DNA from: Nitrospirota bacterium
GTDB lineage: Bacteria; Nitrospirota; Leptospirillia; Leptospirillales; Leptospirillaceae
Assembly (NCBI GenBank): GCA_021806225.1
Contig: JAJZXW010000033.1
Span: 1 to 64,000 of the forward strand
Reading direction: 5' to 3'
Length of the DNA: 64,000 bases
Position 1 is the stretch's first letter, and each line of letters starts with the position of its first letter. This document shows positions 37,732 through 48,364 of the stretch, piece by piece. Position numbers and translations under genes: made by a program. The notes beneath the pieces are model-generated. The model saw nothing but the letters and a program-made list of their open reading frames with translations, ran no database searches and had not been told where the DNA came from.

Positions 37732-38775
37732 CACAATCTTGTCCGGGACGATGAGATCAAGGGATTGGTGGTAAAGGTCTATCCGACCGGGGCCACGACG
37801 TTCTTTCTCGACGTGCTGGTGGAGAAGCACCACGACATGTTCAAACTCGGGCAGTGGCCTGAGCCGAACATTGCCCAGATCCGGGAAAAGGCCAAGAAGA
37901 CGAGGGCCGACCTTGCCCAGGGGAAGAACCCCAAGGCCGAGAAGCGGGAAGGGATCACGGTCGAGGAATTTTTAGGGGTCTATATGGAGCGGCACGGCTC
38001 CCTCAAAAAGTCGAAGGCGAACGACCTGAACAGCTTCACCAAATACCTGACGCAGTGGGCGAGCCACCCGCTCCAGGAAATCACCCGGGAGAAGGCGGAG
38101 ACGCTTCACCAGACCGTCGGATAGGAGATGCCGACACAGGCGAACCGGGTCCAGGCCCTCCTGTCCACGATGTTCTCCAAGGCGATGCTCTGGGGCTACC
38201 ACAAAGGGGAGAACTCTTGCCGGGGAATCCGGAAATTCCGGAAGGTCAGCCGGGACCGATTCCTTTCAGGGGAAGAACTGGCCCGCTTCTTCGAAGCCCT
38301 GGACCTGACCGAGAATCCGGCCTTCAAGGACTTCATCCTCCTGTCGTTGTTCACCGGGGCCAAAAAGTCGAACGTCCTCTCCATGCGCTGGAAGGATGTC
38401 AACTTCGAGCGGTCCGTCTGGAAGATCCCCGTCGAACTCTCGAAGAACGGAGATCAGAGGCAGATCCCCCTCGCTCCGGACGTTCTGGACATTCTCCGGA
38501 AACCTCGGGCGGAAACCTCTTCCGCCTTCGTCCTTCCGGGACCGGGGGCGAAGGGCCATTACATGGAACCCAAGAGGGCCTGGAACACCCTTCTCGAACG
38601 GGCCAAACTGGAAGACCTCCGGATTCATGATCTGCGTCGGAGCATGGGGTCATGGATGACTATCGGTGGAACCTCCCTCCTCATTGTCGGGAAGGCCCTC
38701 GGGCACAAGACCAGTCAGGCAACTTCCATCTATGCCCGCCTGAATCTGGATCCTGTCCGGGCCGCGATGGATTAG
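37732..38775 (+). pseudogene. Tyrosine recombinase/integrase (P4-like), interrupted by in-frame TAG at 38122-38124
   Basis: LVVKVYPTGATTFFLDVLVE...; MPTQANRVQALLSTMFSKAM; HDLRRSMGSWMTIGGTSLLIVGKALGHKTSQATSIYARLNLDPVRAAMD in the same frame on both sides of the stop. Confidence 0.85.
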
Positions 38776-40482: not shown

Positions 40483-40558
40483 TGGTGGAGCTGACGGGGG
40501 TCGAACCCGTGACCTCAAGACTGCCAGTCTTGCGCGCTCCCAACTGCGCCACAGCCCC
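40483..40558 (-). tRNA. tRNA-Ala (anticodon GGC), CCA encoded
   Basis: Reverse complement GGGGCTGTGGCGCAGTTGGGAGCGCGCAAGACTGGCAGTCTTGAGGTCACGGGTTCGACCCCCGTCAGCTCCACCA folds as a cloverleaf. Confidence 0.96.
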
Positions 40559-40691
40559 ATCCGTTTGGATTCCGGCGAACACCGGTAGGACTCATCCTAA
40601 CAGATACCCCGATTCGATTCAAGAGATTCCCGAAGCGGTCAGAAAAAAACATTGACACCGACTCGAGGCCGCGCTAGTATTTGAATCAATA

Positions 40692-40750
40692 TCTCTGGTG
40701 GAGTGATTTGAGACTATTGCAACCACCTTAAAAAAAAGTGCTAAAAGTCC
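40692..40750 (+). ncRNA. SAM-II/SAM-V-like riboswitch aptamer upstream of metK
   Basis: GGTGG-AGTGATTTGAGACTATTGCAA-CCACC-TTAAAAAAAAGT-GCTAAAAG matches the core GAUUU..AUUGCAA..GCUAAAA. Confidence 0.8.
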
Positions 40751-40771
40751 AGGAATACTCGATTTTTCGAT

Positions 40772-40803
40772 AAACCCTGTGCTTATGCACCGGGTTTTTT
40801 TTT
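40772..40803 (+). terminator. Intrinsic terminator between riboswitch and metK
   Basis: AAACCC-T-GTGC-TTAT-GCAC-C-GGGTTTTTTTTT. Confidence 0.85.
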
Positions 40804-40825
40804 GTCTTCAATCCAGGAGGATTTG

Positions 40826-41983
40826 ATGGCCAAGAGCCACTACCTGTTCACGTCCGAATCCGTCACCGAAGGACATCCGGACAAGATGTGCGACCAGATT
40901 TCCGATGGCGTTCTCGATGCGATACTCTCCCAGGACCCCATGGGCCGGGTGGCCTGCGAGACTCTGACCACCACCGGTCTCGTCCTTTTGGCGGGAGAAA
41001 TCACGGCCCGCCACAACGTCCAGTTCGACGAAGTGGCCCGGGAAGTCATCAAGGATATCGGATATACGGACTCCGACACGGGGTTCGACTACAAAACCTG
41101 TGCTGTCATGACGACGATTCATTCCCAGTCTCCGGACATTTCGATGGGGGTCGATACCGGAGGGGCCGGTGATCAGGGGTTGATGTTCGGCATGGCCGTC
41201 GACGAGACCGAGGAACTTATGCCGATGCCGATCCTTCTGGCACATCGTCTCACGCGGCAGCTCTCCTACCTCAGAAAGTCCGGCGTCCTTCCCTACCTGC
41301 GTCCGGACGGAAAGGCCCAGGTGACGCTGGAATATGACGGAGACGCTCCGGTGGCGATCGACACCATCGTGGTCTCGACCCAGCATGCTCCAGAAATCAC
41401 CCAGGAACAGATATACAGCGATGTGATCGAAAAGGTGGTCCGTCCGGTTCTTCCGGAAAATCTCCTGGGAAGCCGCCCCGTGACATTCCATATCAACCCC
41501 ACCGGACGATTCGTGACCGGTGGACCGCATGGCGATGCCGGATTGACCGGGCGAAAGATCATCGTCGACACTTATGGTGGTGCCGGGCGCCATGGAGGGG
41601 GAGCTTTTTCCGGAAAGGATCCCACAAAGGTCGACCGGTCGGCCTGCTACATGGCGCGCTACGTCGCGAAAAATATCGTTGGAGCCGGGCTCGCCAAGCG
41701 GTGTGAAGTTCAGATCGCCTACGCCATCGGCGTTGCCGATCCTGTTTCGGTGCATGTGAATACCTACCAGACCTCGCCAGTCTCCGATCGACTGATCGAG
41801 ACAGTGGTCCGGGAGCTTTTTCCTCTGACCCCCAAGGGAATCATCGACCATCTGAAGCTTAGGCGCCCGATTTACCGCAAGACCGCCTCCTATGGCCACT
41901 TCGGCCGATCGGAGGAGGATTTTACCTGGGAGAAGCTCGACATGGCCGAAAGTCTCAGACGGGAAACGGAACGCTTGGGCTGA
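40826..41983 (+). CDS. metK: S-adenosylmethionine synthetase
   Basis: [52 protein letters not shown]. Confidence 0.98.
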
Positions 41984-42023: not shown

Positions 42024-43280
42024 ATGAAGTGTGACATCAAGGACAAGAAGCTGGCAGCCATGGGTGCTGCCCGGATCGAATGGGCCGGGCGGGACATGCC
42101 TGTGCTGGCGGATATTGCAAAGGATTTCGCGAAGTCGAAGCCCCTCAAGGGGGTCAAGGTGGCTGCCTGTCTTCATGTGACCAGCGAGACGGCCAACCTG
42201 ATGAAGACCCTCAAGGCGGGAGGAGCCGATGTCATGCTCTGCGCTTCCAATCCCCTTTCGACACAGGACGATGTCGCCGCCTCTCTCGTCGTCAATGACG
42301 GGATTCCCGTCTTTGCCATCAAGGGAGAAGACCACGAGACCTACTACAGCCACATCCGGGCGGTCCTCGAAGTAAAGCCCCAGATCACGATGGATGATGG
42401 AGCGGACCTTGTCTCCATGCTCCATTCCGATCTCAAGTCCCTTCTTCCCTACGTCATCGGCGGAACCGAGGAGACGACCACCGGCGTCATCCGTCTCAAA
42501 GCCATGGCAAAAAACAAGGTCCTCGGATACCCCATTGTTGCTGTCAACGACTCAGAAACGAAGCATCTTTTCGATAACCGCTACGGAACAGGACAGTCCA
42601 CACTCGATGGCATCATGCGCGCCACGAACCGCCTCTTCGCCGGCTCGACCGTCGTTGTCTGCGGATATGGATGGTGCGGCCGCGGAATTGCCCGGCGTGC
42701 TTCCGGAATGGGGGCCAAGGTCCTCGTGACCGAGGTCGACCCAATCAAGGGTCTCGAGGCGGCCATGGATGGATTCGGGGTGATGCCGATCCGGGAAGCG
42801 GCCAAGCTGGGAGACTTTTTCATCACAGTCACGGGGGATATCAATGTGATCGCCAAGGACGCCTTCAAGGTGATGAAGGACGGGGCCATCGTCTGCAACT
42901 CCGGCCACTTCAACGCCGAAATAGACATCCCGGCCCTCGAGAAACTGGCTGTCCGGAAGAATCCCCTCCGGAACTTCGTGGAAGAATACGTCATGAAGGA
43001 TGGCCGCCGGATCATGCTTCTGGGAGAGGGGCGTCTCATCAACCTCGCCTCCGCAGAAGGTCATCCCGCGCAGGTGATGGACATGAGCTTCGCGAACCAG
43101 GCTCTCGGGGCCGAGTTCATCGTCAAGCATGCCAAGACCCTTCCAAAGGATGTGCTGACGATTCCGAAGGAGGTCGATCATGAGATCGCCCGCAGGAAGC
43201 TTTCGGCACTCGGGATCGGCATCGACACCCTGACGCCAGAACAGGAGCGCTATCTGGCGTCCTGGGAGCAGGGAACCTAG
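42024..43280 (+). CDS. ahcY: Adenosylhomocysteinase
   Basis: [55 protein letters not shown]. Confidence 0.97.
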
Positions 43281-43288
43281 GAGTACTC

Positions 43289-43495
43289 ATGGAGATCAGC
43301 GTCAACGGAAAGACCGAAACGGTGGGCCCGGGGAGCACTGTCGTATCGGTGCTCAAGGCAAAGGAGCTGGACCCCGCCCTCGTGTCGGTGGAACATAATG
43401 GAAAAATTCTGGAAAAGTCCGATCTCGACGGGGCTGTCCTGTCAGAGGGGGATGAACTGGAGATTCTCTTTTTCATGGGAGGCGGCGCGGCCTGA
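43289..43495 (+). CDS. ThiS-like ubiquitin-fold sulfur carrier; C-terminus ...FFMGGGAA
   Basis: 68 aa MEISVNGKTETV...DELEILFFMGGGAA. Confidence 0.88.
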   Translation: MEISVNGKTETVGPGSTVVSVLKAKELDPALVSVEHNGKILEKSDLDGAVLSEGDELEILFFMGGGAA

Positions 43496-43532
43496 TCTTG
43501 GCGGCGTCACCTCTCCGTAAGGAACAGCCATC

Positions 43533-44477
43533 GTGACATCTCCACAATCGGGAGAGACTCCGGTCTCTCCCCTCCTGGAACTTATCGGGCGGACACCCCT
43601 CGTGCCTCTCTCGACAATCAGCTTCGATCTCGGCCGGACGATCCTGGTCAAGCTCGAATCGCGGAGTCTCGGGGGAAGCATCAAGGACAGGCCGGCCCTT
43701 TTTATGATCGACGATGCCCGTAAACGGGGGCTTCTCCGGCCCGGCGCCCGGATTGTCGAGGCGACAAGTGGTAATATGGGAATAGGTCTCGCCCAGATCG
43801 CGGTCCTCTTCCGTCATCCCGTCACCATCGTGATGCCTGAAGGAATGAGCCAGGAGCGGATCTCCCACCTGAAGGCTCTCGGGGCGGCTGTTGAGCTCAC
43901 TCCCTCGGGGGGCGGCATGCAGGCGGCCATCGATCGGGCGCAGGAGATCGTAAAAGGGGAGATTGGGGCGTTCATGCCTCGCCAGTTTGAAAACCCTGCC
44001 AACCCCGAATCGCACTACCGGACGACAGGTCCGGAAATCGTCGAAGCCCTGGGCTCTCTTCCGGATGGTTTCGTTGCAGGTGTCGGGACTGGCGGGACAA
44101 TTTCCGGAACCGGAGGATTCCTCCGGGAAAAGAACCCGGCGATACCGGTCTGGGCTCTGGAGCCTGAAGGCTCGGCGGTCCTTTCGGGGAACCCCCCCGG
44201 GCCACACCGGATCCAGGGGATAGGCGCCGGCTTCGTTCCGAAGATCCTCGACCGGTCGGTGATCACGAAAGTCCTGACGGTGAGCGACCGTCAGGCCATC
44301 GACATGGCGCATCGTCTCGCCCGGGAAGAGGGGATCATGGCCGGCATCTCTTCGGGGGCCAATGTCGTCGGTGCCATGGCCCTTGCCCGGACCCTTCCCG
44401 AAGGATCCCGGGTGGTGACGGTCGTGTGCGATGGATACGAACGCTACTTTTCGATCGAAAAATATCTCTCTCTTTAG
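43533..44477 (+). CDS. cysM: Cysteine synthase family PLP enzyme (CysM/CysK)
   Basis: LIGRTPLVPL, LGGSIKDRPALFMI, EATSGNMGIGLA, GTGGTISGTGGFL. Confidence 0.93.
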   Translation: MTSPQSGETPVSPLLELIGRTPLVPLSTISFDLGRTILVKLESRSLGGSIKDRPALFMIDDARKRGLLRPGARIVEATSGNMGIGLAQIAVLFRHPVTIVMPEGMSQERISHLKALGAAVELTPSGGGMQAAIDRAQEIVKGEIGAFMPRQFENPANPESHYRTTGPEIVEALGSLPDGFVAGVGTGGTISGTGGFLREKNPAIPVWALEPEGSAVLSGNPPGPHRIQGIGAGFVPKILDRSVITKVLTVSDRQAIDMAHRLAREEGIMAGISSGANVVGAMALARTLPEGSRVVTVVCDGYERYFSIEKYLSL

Positions 44478-44487
44478 GGGGCACTAT

Positions 44488-45297
44488 ATGGAATTGACCG
44501 AGGAACGGATCGAGCGCTATTCCCGTCATATTCTTCTGCCGGAGGTCGGAGGGAAGGGGCAGCAGCGGCTTCTTTCCTCGCGCGTTCTGATCATTGGGGC
44601 CGGCGGGCTGGGAAGTCCTGCCGCGCTCTACCTTGCGGCCGCAGGGGTCGGAACTATAGGCATCGTGGACATGGATGTGGTCGATCTCTCCAACCTTCAG
44701 CGGCAGATCATCCACACCACCGCGGATCTGGATCATCCCAAGGTCCAGTCGGCCGAGGAGAAAATCCGGGATCTTAACCCCGATGTCACCGTCCGGACAT
44801 ACCCGTATGCCCTCACCGCCGCCAATGCGCGCGAGATAGCGGGTGACTACGACGTCATTCTGGACGGAACCGACAACTTTCCTGCGAAGTTTCTGATCAA
44901 CGATCTGGCCGTCATCGCGAAAAAGCCCCTCGTTCACGGTGGAATCCTGCGTTTCGTGGGGCAGGTACTGACCATTCTTCCCGGGGAATCTGCCTGCTAC
45001 CGGTGTCTTTTTCGAGAGCCACCGCCTGCGGGGGCCGTTCCAACCTGTTCCGAGGCGGGAGTCCTGGGGGTCATCGCCGGAGTGATCGGAACCATCCAGG
45101 CCACAGAAGTCCTGAAAATCATTCTCGGGAAGGGCGACCTTCTGGAAAACCGGCTTCTCACCTACGACGCGCTGACGACGACCTTCCGGCCGGTTTCGGT
45201 TCGTCGAAGCCCCAAGTGCCCCGTATGCGGGGATCATCCTTCGATCACGGAGTTAATCGATTATGAACAGCCAGTCTGCACCACACCAGGAATCTGA
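44488..45297 (+). CDS. moeB: ThiF/MoeB E1-like adenylyltransferase, copy 1
   Basis: RYSRHILLPEVGGKGQQRL, IIGAGGLGSPAALYLAAAGVG, CYRC...CPVC. Confidence 0.95.
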   Translation: MELTEERIERYSRHILLPEVGGKGQQRLLSSRVLIIGAGGLGSPAALYLAAAGVGTIGIVDMDVVDLSNLQRQIIHTTADLDHPKVQSAEEKIRDLNPDVTVRTYPYALTAANAREIAGDYDVILDGTDNFPAKFLINDLAVIAKKPLVHGGILRFVGQVLTILPGESACYRCLFREPPPAGAVPTCSEAGVLGVIAGVIGTIQATEVLKIILGKGDLLENRLLTYDALTTTFRPVSVRRSPKCPVCGDHPSITELIDYEQPVCTTPGI

Positions 45298-46573
45298 ACA
45301 GACCCGGGGGGAGGGGGGCAACGCCTCCTCTCCGAAGGAGTCGAAGATAAAGGGACTGAAGTGTCGTGAATGCGGCCGTCTTTATCCGGCCGTGGCGATT
45401 CATATCTGCGAGTTTTGCTTTGGACCCCTCGAGGTTGATTACGACTATGCGGCGATCGGGAGGAGAATCACACGGCGCTCGATCGAGGAGGGGCCGAAAT
45501 CCCTCTGGCGCTACCACGAGCTCCTTCCGGTCACCGGAGCTCCCACCGTCGGTCTCCATGCCGGAATGACCCCGCTGATCCACGCCAAGCGGCTAGGCAG
45601 GCTCCTGGGGCTCGACAATCTTTATCTGAAAAACGACACAGTGAACCATCCCACACTCTCCTTCAAGGATCGTGTCGTGGCTGTCGCCATGACGCGCGCC
45701 CGGGAGCTGGGATTCGATACGGTCGCCTGCGCTTCGACCGGCAATCTCGCGAACTCCGTATCGGCCCATGCCGCGAGCGTCGGAATGAAGTGCTTCGTCT
45801 TCATCCCCCACGATCTCGAGGCGGGGAAGATTTTGGGAAATCTGATCTACAATCCTACGGTGGTGGCCGTCCGTGGGAACTACGACGATGTGAACCGCCT
45901 CTGTAGCGAAATCGGGGGAGAGTACCCCTGGGCTTTCGTCAACATAAACATCCGCCCCTACTACGCCGAGGGATCCAAATCGCTGGCCTTTGAAACGGCC
46001 GAGCAGCTCGGCTGGCGCATTCCCGACCAGGTGGTAGTTCCGATCGCCTCGGGCTCCCTTCTGACGAAGATCCGGAAAGGATTTCAGGAGTTCGAGAAGC
46101 TGGGGCTCGTCTCGACGAACGACCGCCTCAAGGTCAACGGAGCCCAGGCTGAAGGGTGCTCGCCGGTCTACCGGGCCTTCGTCTCGGGCAAAAACCACCT
46201 CATCCCGGTCAAGCCGAACACGATCGCCAAGTCCCTCGCCATTGGAAATCCCGCCGACGGCTTTTACTCTCTCGACGTGGTTTTCAAATCGGGGGGGGCG
46301 ATTGCCGCTGCGAGCGATCAGGAGATCGTCGAGGGGATGAAGCTTCTGGCCGAAACCGAAGGAATCTTCGCCGAGACGGCGGGGGGGGTGACCATCGCTT
46401 CCCTCAGAAAGCTGTGCGCGGAAGGGCGGATTGGCCGCAAGGACCTGACTGTCGCCTATATCACCGGGAACGGTCTCAAGACCATGGAAGCCCTGTCGGG
46501 AGCCCTGCCGGAACCGGTCGGCATCGATCCGACCCTGGCCTCCTTCAGGAAAACAGTCAATCCTACAAACTGA
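45263..46573 (+). CDS. thrC: Threonine synthase
   Basis: CRECGRLYP...CEFCFGPLEVDYDY, HPTLSFKDRVVAVAM, ACASTGNLANSVSAHAA. Confidence 0.93.
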   Translation: MNSQSAPHQESEQTRGEGGNASSPKESKIKGLKCRECGRLYPAVAIHICEFCFGPLEVDYDYAAIGRRITRRSIEEGPKSLWRYHELLPVTGAPTVGLHAGMTPLIHAKRLGRLLGLDNLYLKNDTVNHPTLSFKDRVVAVAMTRARELGFDTVACASTGNLANSVSAHAASVGMKCFVFIPHDLEAGKILGNLIYNPTVVAVRGNYDDVNRLCSEIGGEYPWAFVNINIRPYYAEGSKSLAFETAEQLGWRIPDQVVVPIASGSLLTKIRKGFQEFEKLGLVSTNDRLKVNGAQAEGCSPVYRAFVSGKNHLIPVKPNTIAKSLAIGNPADGFYSLDVVFKSGGAIAAASDQEIVEGMKLLAETEGIFAETAGGVTIASLRKLCAEGRIGRKDLTVAYITGNGLKTMEALSGALPEPVGIDPTLASFRKTVNPTN

Positions 46574-46595
46574 ATTTCGTAGAGAAAGGAAGATC

Positions 46596-46877
46596 ATGTC
46601 CGTTGTCGTTCGCATTCCCACGCCCCTCCGCAAGCTCACCGGCAACCAGAACGAGGTCCGGGAAGAGGGAGGAACGATCAGGGAGATCCTGAAGAATCTC
46701 GAGCTCCACTATCCGGGGATTGGAGAACGTCTGGCGGATGAGAGCGGGGAATTGCGCCGGTTCATCAATATCTACGTCAACGAGGAAGATATCCGATTCC
46801 GTGAGGGACTCGATACCTCCATCAAACCGGGAGACGAGGTTTCGATCATACCGGCCATCGCGGGAGGCTCGACATGA
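46596..46877 (+). CDS. MoaD/CysO-like sulfur carrier; C-terminus ...IIPAIAGGST
   Basis: MSVVVRIPTPLRKLTGNQNEV...FINIYVNEEDIRFREGLDTSIKPGDEVSIIPAIAGGST. Confidence 0.92.
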   Translation: MSVVVRIPTPLRKLTGNQNEVREEGGTIREILKNLELHYPGIGERLADESGELRRFINIYVNEEDIRFREGLDTSIKPGDEVSIIPAIAGGST

Positions 46878-47116
46878 CCCAGATGCGACTTCACCTGACC
46901 TTTCCTGAGGAGCGCGTCAGGGAGCCGGTCATCTATGAGATCTGCCGAAAGTTTCCCGTGGTGGTCAACATCCGGAGGGCTGACATCTCCCTCGACAGCG
47001 GATGGGTCGAGCTCGAGATGGACGGCGAGCTCGCGGACATCGAACGGACCGTTCTGTATCTGAGGGAACGGGGCGTTCATGTGGACCCTCTCGAAAAGAG
47101 CATTCTCGAGGGGTAG
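46874..47116 (+). CDS. NIL-domain protein
   Basis: 80 aa; LTFPEERVREPVIYEICRKFPVVVNIRRADI typical of the NIL domain. Confidence 0.88.
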   Translation: MTQMRLHLTFPEERVREPVIYEICRKFPVVVNIRRADISLDSGWVELEMDGELADIERTVLYLRERGVHVDPLEKSILEG

Positions 47117-47126
47117 GAGGGGTTCA

Positions 47127-47939
47127 ATGATATTTCGCGAAGATCAGATTTCTCGATATAGCCGGCACATCATCCTCAAGGAGGTGGGAGGGCGGGGTCA
47201 GGAGAAGCTCCTCTCCGCCCGTGTCCTGATCATCGGTGCCGGAGGACTGGGAAGCCCGGTCGCCATGTACCTGGCCGCCGCCGGGATCGGGACCATCGGT
47301 CTTGTGGATATGGACGTGGTGGACGTTTCCAATCTCCAGCGCCAGATCATGCATTCGCAGAAGACTGTCGGCATCCCGAAGGTCCTCTCCGGAGCCCGGA
47401 CCCTCGAGCGGATGAATCCTGATGTGACGGTCAATCCCATCCAGGACCGGCTGACAGCCGAGAACGCGATGGAGATGTTTTCCGATTATGACGTGATCGT
47501 CGACGGGTCCGACAACTTCGGGACCCGGTACATCGTCAACGATGCGGCCTTCTTCCTTCGCAAGACCCTCGTCTCCGGCTCCATCCTCCGCTTTGAGGGG
47601 CAGGTGACGGTCCTCGAGGGCCATACCGATGCCCCCTGCTATCGATGCCTCTATCCGGAAGCGCCTCCTCCGGGACTGGTTCCTTCCTGCTCGGAGGCGG
47701 GAGTTCTGGGAGTCCTGGCGGGAACGATCGGGACGCTCCAGGCGGCGGAGGTGGTAAAGAAGATTCTCGGGATCGGAGAGCTCCTGAAGGGACAGCTCCT
47801 TCTTTATGATGCGCTCTCCATGAGTTTCCGTAAGCTCCGGGTTCCCAAGGATCCGAAATGTCCTCTTTGCGGCCCTGCCCCGACCATCACCGCCGTTGCC
47901 GGCTCCTCAGAGTGGGTATGCCAGATTCCCGCCCCCTGA
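47127..47939 (+). CDS. moeB: ThiF/MoeB E1-like adenylyltransferase, copy 2
   Basis: RYSRHIILKEVGGRGQEKL, IIGAGGLGSPVAMYLAAAGIG, CYRC...CPLC. Confidence 0.95.
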   Translation: MIFREDQISRYSRHIILKEVGGRGQEKLLSARVLIIGAGGLGSPVAMYLAAAGIGTIGLVDMDVVDVSNLQRQIMHSQKTVGIPKVLSGARTLERMNPDVTVNPIQDRLTAENAMEMFSDYDVIVDGSDNFGTRYIVNDAAFFLRKTLVSGSILRFEGQVTVLEGHTDAPCYRCLYPEAPPPGLVPSCSEAGVLGVLAGTIGTLQAAEVVKKILGIGELLKGQLLLYDALSMSFRKLRVPKDPKCPLCGPAPTITAVAGSSEWVCQIPAP

Positions 47940-48364
47940 CCCGGGGCGTGTCCTTTCCGGAGGCCCTTGCGAGAGAGATTCTGGATCACTGCCTGTCCGT
48001 AAGACCGGAGGAAGGATGCGGCCTTGTCGCCGCGGACGGATCAGGAAGGCCGGTGGCCATTCTTCCCGTTGCCAATGCCCTTCACTCTCCGGTCAGATAC
48101 CAGATGGACACCCGCGAACAGTTCGATGCCATGAAGCGTCTCCGCCGGGAGGGCTGGTCTCTCTTTGCCATCTTCCATTCCCACCCCCATTCCGAGCCGT
48201 CGCCGTCCCCGACGGACATCCGGCTGGCCTTCTACCCCGATTGCTACTATCTCATCGCCGGTCTGGGCACCGATCAGCCTGTTCTCCGATGTTTTTCGAT
48301 CGTGGAGGGAGTGGTAACCGAGCATTCCCTGTCGATCGTAACGGAAGGTGGATCGCGGTCTTGA
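47918..48364 (+). CDS. JAMM/MPN+ metalloprotease (Mec/CysO peptidase-like)
   Basis: PEEGCGLVA and FHSHPHSEPSPSPTDI (JAMM motif). Confidence 0.9.
   Translation: MPDSRPLTRGVSFPEALAREILDHCLSVRPEEGCGLVAADGSGRPVAILPVANALHSPVRYQMDTREQFDAMKRLRREGWSLFAIFHSHPHSEPSPSPTDIRLAFYPDCYYLIAGLGTDQPVLRCFSIVEGVVTEHSLSIVTEGGSRS

Follow-up and report, generated by a model that had tools for sequence, protein, structure and literature searches.

The SAM-II class of riboswitches was reported from alpha-proteobacteria, a few further cases coming from the Bacteroides group and from proteobacteria of other kinds; putative intrinsic terminators are present in many representatives (Corbino 2005; PMC1273637). A later survey found that, in alpha- and beta-proteobacteria, no class other than SAM-II is coupled to terminators in most cases (Barrick and Breaker 2007; PMC2258182), and the majority of SAM-II elements are transcriptional (Huang 2018; PMC6061858). 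Rfam covers the class with RF00521 (SAM_alpha, the metA element of Corbino 2005) and RF01726 ("SAM-II long loop", Weinberg 2010), a variant found in Bacteroidetes and marine sequences (PMC2864571). The crystal structure of SAM-V (RF01826) shows a ligand core common to, and superimposable on, that of SAM-II, whereas SAM-V acts on translation, with the Shine-Dalgarno sequence held in a 2-bp P2a (PMC6061858).

The element described here lies in the window, the whole 64,000-nucleotide stretch analysed, from a Nitrospirota metagenome-assembled genome of the Leptospirillum-type family. It shares with RF01726 the P1 stem, the loop core GAUUUGA..AUUGCAACC, the A-rich linker and GCUAAA, and differs in host phylum and in having GUGC where the model has AUGC before UAAA, a change in which the window G adds a fourth pair with the terminator GCAC. 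With RF00521 it shares the architecture and the order promoter-aptamer-terminator, although the genes behind it are metK-ahcY instead of metA. The SAM-II element of Sinorhizobium meliloti metZ also has a predicted SAM-induced Rho-independent terminator, in an alphaproteobacterium and with metZ as target; the comparison made here is one of mechanism (PMC9373788). Coupling to a terminator, which the sequence-only reading had regarded as unusual, is thus the usual arrangement of SAM-II in the published surveys (PMC1273637; PMC2258182; PMC6061858). Its point about lineage holds, as the surveys give Proteobacteria and Bacteroidetes, and no report joining SAM-II with Nitrospirae, Nitrospir- or Leptospirillum was found in the literature searched, which was covered in part. 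Automatic annotation may already carry Nitrospirota SAM-II, because the score of a closed Leptospirillum-type genome, 44.6 bits, is above the Rfam threshold. As a mechanism this is nothing out of the ordinary for SAM-II; the novelty lies in the lineage and in an expression platform worked out across it.

The aptamer and its ligand pocket

The features of the aptamer, all on the forward strand, are as follows.

40692-40754 (+): SAM-II aptamer, RF01726 match, 41.7 bits, full model 1-60
40688-40764 (+): SAM_alpha (RF00521) match, 30.7 bits
40697-40701 (+): P1 5' strand, GGUGG
40705-40722 (+): conserved loop, GATTTGAGACTATTGCAA
40705-40720 (+): L1/P2b share of the ligand pocket, GAUUU and AUUGC
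40712-40715 (+): P2a 5' strand of the pseudoknot, GACU, partner 40746-40749
40716-40720 (+): P2b 5' part, AUUGC, with GCUAAA at 40740-40745
40723-40727 (+): P1 3' strand, CCACC
40730-40737 (+): A-rich linker
40740-40747 (+): GCTAAAAG
40740-40749 (+): P2b/P2a 3' strand, GCUAAAAGUC

Across the whole 1.43-Mb assembly, RF01726 matches with E = 8.0e-7 and RF00521 with E = 2.7e-5, and each match is the only one in the genome. The curated Rfam cut-offs are 44 and 36 bits, so the window aptamer falls short by 2.3 and 5.3 bits, respectively. Because both scores lie below these cut-offs, a default Rfam scan misses the element (that of the window reported a tRNA only), and E-value mode is needed to detect it. 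Close homologues exceed the RF01726 cut-off, at 44.6-49.4 bits. Other low-E Rfam matches in the region, including AaHKsRNA20, PyrR and Leu_leader, are terminator look-alikes under cut-off and were set aside. On the genome-wide E-values and on conservation at 27 loci of the phylum, the window element is of the SAM-II class, real and far beyond chance. A chance resemblance, in which the leader is merely A-rich and followed by a terminator, could point to scores under the gathering cut-offs, but is hardly credible given the E-value of 8e-7, the agreement of a second family model and a core strictly kept at 27 loci with diverging flanks; it would hold only if all relatives were equally inert.

The GGTGG/CCACC stem, its enclosed core, the A-rich linker, the T9 run and the Shine-Dalgarno sequence and ATG of metK are all where the sequence-only reading had placed them. 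Its assignment to a SAM-II/SAM-V-like pseudoknot aptamer stands for SAM-II and falls for SAM-V, and the covariance-model check that it proposed divides in the same manner, RF00521 being significant genome-wide though under its cut-off. The RF01826 model finds nothing in the region at E <= 10 and nothing in the genome, the genome search having been run without a positive control, and the element is therefore SAM-II and not SAM-V. The Shine-Dalgarno sequence, moreover, is not inside P2a, lying 66 nt beyond.

Within P1, GUGG/CCAC is present in all 27 loci, while the outer pair, G-C in the window, is replaced by C-G in L020-L022. The P2 pseudoknot of the window consists of GACU/AGUC, GC/GC and U.A-U, with a P2a register that we take to be that of the SAM-II crystal structure; relatives whose loop is 17 nt long have a weaker or displaced P2a. 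GATTT, TTGCA and GCTAA are unvaried (27/27 loci), and the sixth base of GCTAAA is A in 26 of the 27. The exception, L107 (1501-1562), is a SAM-II copy with GCTAAT, which may be impaired or altered since the changed base is the counterpart of an aminoacyl-contacting residue.

We mapped the pocket ourselves onto the SAM-V crystal structure (PMC6061858). By this analogy, U40708 and U40718 would be the counterparts of the sulfonium-facing uridines U9 and U20 of SAM-V, U40718:A40743.U40708 would form the triple around the sulfonium, U40742 would pair with the SAM adenine, and A40745 would contact the aminoacyl end. Every pocket base is present in the window copy. A SAM-V identity, or a specificity shifted to another ligand such as S-adenosylhomocysteine (SAH), appears very improbable: the nearly identical cores of SAM-V and SAM-II (PMC6061858) and the position of ahcY as second gene of the operon would suit it, whereas the missing SAM_V match, the retention of the U.A-U triple with the adenine- and aminoacyl-contacting bases, and the presence of metK behind 22 of the 27 copies speak against it.

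Terminator, antiterminator and the proposed switch

The remaining features of the leader are listed below.

40652-40680 (+): sigma-70-like promoter, TTGACA-17-TAGTAT, 10/12 matches
40738-40741, 40745-40748 and 40750-40753 (+): predicted antiterminator 5' strand, GUGC, AAGU and CAGG (RNAfold)
40759-40770 (+): predicted antiterminator inner hairpin, UCGA-UUUU-UCGA (RNAfold)
40776-40779, 40781-40784 and 40787-40790 (+): predicted antiterminator 3' strand, CCUG, GCUU and GCAC (RNAfold)
40772-40803 (+): intrinsic terminator, AAACCC-U-GUGC-UUAU-GCAC-C-GGGUUU and U tract, with the hairpin at 40772-40797
40815-40820 (+): Shine-Dalgarno sequence of metK, AGGAGG, outside the aptamer
40826 (+): metK ATG

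Transcription is expected to start at about 40685-40690, just ahead of P1, and comparable promoter boxes lie 15-28 nt ahead of the aptamer core in 26 of the 27 loci, the weakest being that of L106. Further upstream, on the opposite strand, is a tRNA gene (40486-40558 (-), 65.1 bits), about 93 bases before the -35 box. A terminator does precede metK, with its nine-T run at 40795-40803, though the hairpin is not perfect as had been claimed, having a 1x1 mismatch (U40778.C40791). This mismatch is probably why a simple terminator scan reported no terminator at the region; the hairpin is revealed by RNAfold (-14.3 kcal/mol alone) and by conservation, with an equivalent hairpin and 6-9 T in all 27 loci.

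The link between aptamer and terminator that the sequence-only reading lacked is predicted to be an antiterminator, in which 40738-40753 pairs with 40776-40790. As computed, it draws on the SAM pocket and the pseudoknot for 40740, 40741 and 40745-40748, and also on both arms of the terminator upper stem. Two simpler pairings were discarded: CAGG/CCUG alone is incomplete by RNAfold, and UCUGG (40694-40698) with CCAGG is seen in no fold. When the stretch from GCTAAA to the terminator 5' arm is folded separately, 26 of 26 loci give one hairpin type, AAGU-C-CAGG with CCUG-U-GCUU around an inner stem whose sequence differs between genera (UCGA/UCGA, CGAGA/UCUCG, UUUAC/GUAAA). Folds of the whole leader add two further pairings, one between GUGC (40738-40741, two of whose bases belong to P2b) and GCAC (40787-40790), the other between the A-run and the U-run. 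Divergent forms are AGU.C.CAGG/CCUG.U.GCU, AGC-CAGG (L105), GC-CGGG/CCCG (L020-L022) and AGC..GGG (L108). U40778 has no standard terminator partner in Leptospirillum-type metK copies, and the antiterminator pairs it with A40751.

In the free RNA of the window, terminator and antiterminator are calculated to lie 0.9 kcal/mol apart, and in most loci they are nearly equal in energy. With the P2 bases held unpaired and P1 formed, a state imposed as a stand-in for the SAM-bound aptamer in an energy model that leaves out the pseudoknot energy and SAM, the terminator is ahead by 8.2 kcal/mol. Taking all 27 loci, the two folds differ by 0-7.7 kcal/mol when free and by 6.6-15.7 kcal/mol when P2 is held, and in the held state the terminator wins at every locus; at L106 and L107 the terminator exceeds the antiterminator in stability by about 7.5 kcal/mol. 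Window transcripts with 3' ends from 40780 to 40794 have the antiterminator as their calculated fold of lowest energy, and the terminator takes over at 40796. Dinucleotide-preserving shuffles of the part of the platform that precedes the terminator arm, done at 11 loci, raised the free difference of the window from 0.9 to 8.8 +- 2.1 kcal/mol (P = 0.007); P was <= 0.053 in 8 of the 11, values that are not independent within the family, while f7 (P = 0.36) and L020 were without significance.

Column analysis of a MAFFT alignment gives 82.5% pairing for the antiterminator helix, compared with <=56% for slid versions. Covariation is thin, with only one column pair changing on both sides (A-U to G-C, in three related f7 sequences), and most pair-change measures in this alignment are no higher than in shuffles, a weakness that partly reflects bulge variants misplaced by MAFFT. 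The antiterminator 3' strand is also constrained by the terminator.

We consider it very likely that the SAM-II riboswitch represses metK through transcription termination induced by SAM; probably it also acts in this way on the ahcY, sulfur-carrier, cysK and thrC genes further downstream. When SAM is absent, nascent 40738-40753 would leave the aptamer and pair with 40776-40790, and the antiterminator would form before the terminator 3' arm is complete, allowing the polymerase to pass. With SAM, 40740-40749 would be locked into P2b and P2a of the P2 triplex/pseudoknot, leaving only CAGG/CCUG of the antiterminator, and the hairpin at 40772-40797 with its U tract would halt transcription. Both elements of a transcriptional OFF switch, an intrinsic terminator and a mutually exclusive antiterminator, are present by calculation. 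From sequence, family score, conservation and these calculated exclusive pairings we infer SAM binding, termination, the direction of the switch and the extent of the operon. Alternatively, the terminator could be a constitutive attenuator outside the control of a genuine SAM-II aptamer, with any control being translational or through mRNA stability. Such a case has a precedent in S. meliloti metA, where no response of the terminator to the SAM-II riboswitch is predicted and translational or mRNA-stability control was proposed in part (PMC9373788), and the window terminator is stable by itself. We regard this as unlikely, however, as the Shine-Dalgarno sequence is outside the aptamer, and an antiterminator built from aptamer bases appears at 27 of 27 loci and is abolished by shuffling in most.

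Distribution in Nitrospirota and the genes behind the switch

The genes downstream of the leader are arranged as follows.

40826-41983 (+): metK, methionine adenosyltransferase (TIGR01034, 580.6 bits, cut-off 309.4)
42024-43280 (+): ahcY, adenosylhomocysteinase (TIGR00936)
43289-48364 (+): thiS-like, cysK, MoeB/ThiF, thrC, SAMP/MoaD-like, second MoeB/ThiF and JAMM/desampylase-like protease genes

The SAM-biosynthesis gene metK is thus immediately behind the aptamer and terminator. The genes at 43289-48364 probably continue the metK-ahcY operon, as judged from spacing, and make up an unusual sulfur-carrier set; this gene content suggests protein-thiocarboxylate-dependent synthesis of cysteine (or homocysteine) under SAM control. 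The thrC of the window is the sole thrC match in the incomplete genome. On the other side of the leader, two open reading frames (37765-38124 and 38128-38775, within 37765-38775 (+)) were judged by eye to be remnants of a phage-type tyrosine integrase.

A survey of 399 sampled genomes of the phylum with RF01726, under strict filters that may miss weak copies, gave matches in 25, of which 12 were over the cut-off. The same aptamer and intrinsic terminator occur at 27 loci in these 25 genomes, which belong to five families: the host's own (18 of 21 genomes), f7 (three, of one genus), f24 (two), f28 (one) and f43 (one). The switch is mostly before metK, which follows it in f1 (18 loci), f24, f28 and f43. 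In f7 it precedes a JAMM protease-cysK-thrC-TusA-like-SAMP-ThiF operon without metK, the genes being named by resemblance to those of the window; in L109 (G043:C60:36400-46400), for example, the aptamer is at about 150-220, ahead of these genes. This is the same module as follows metK-ahcY in the window, and it is hence tied to SAM-II twice. A second SAM-II copy, which has a terminator of its own, is present in two genomes of the host's genus (L023, 1501-1563 (-); L024, 755-817 (+)); behind it lies a small open reading frame of unknown function (MNGDEKEKIMGLTPDEITFYANLL...) and not metK.

The window MetK is 92% identical to that of Nitrospirae bacterium UBA4572 and 79% identical to that of Nitrospirae DBS1-3.bin109, and both have upstream SAM-II matches over the cut-off (45.8 and 47.1 bits, respectively). 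Relatives above the RF01726 cut-off include L025 (MetK 92% identical, 45.8 bits) and L105 (49.4 bits), and relatives in f7 and f43 pass that of RF00521 (38.9 and 37.2 bits). The L027 metK, a near relative of the L105 metK that bears SAM-II, gave no RNA match in its upstream region, and the MetK tree gives no choice between one origin with losses and transfer.

These observations widen the range of SAM-II from the Proteobacteria and Bacteroidetes listed in the surveys to relatives of acidophilic iron oxidisers; of the Nitrospirota genomes in which it was found, about half are missed at the RF01726 cut-off. It seems reasonably likely that SAM-II is an established class in Nitrospirota, represented in five families or more and using one platform across the lineage: the 3' aptamer strand that contacts SAM doubles as the antiterminator strand and, through its GUGC, mimics the terminator arm. 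On this reading SAM-II would govern metK-ahcY and, independently of it, a cysteine/threonine operon with sulfur-carrier proteins. The result is a compact, testable model in which a pseudoknot aptamer would lend its own ligand-binding strand to the control of a terminator, and the putatively SAM-controlled metK and sulfur-carrier operons form a candidate regulon in Leptospirillum.
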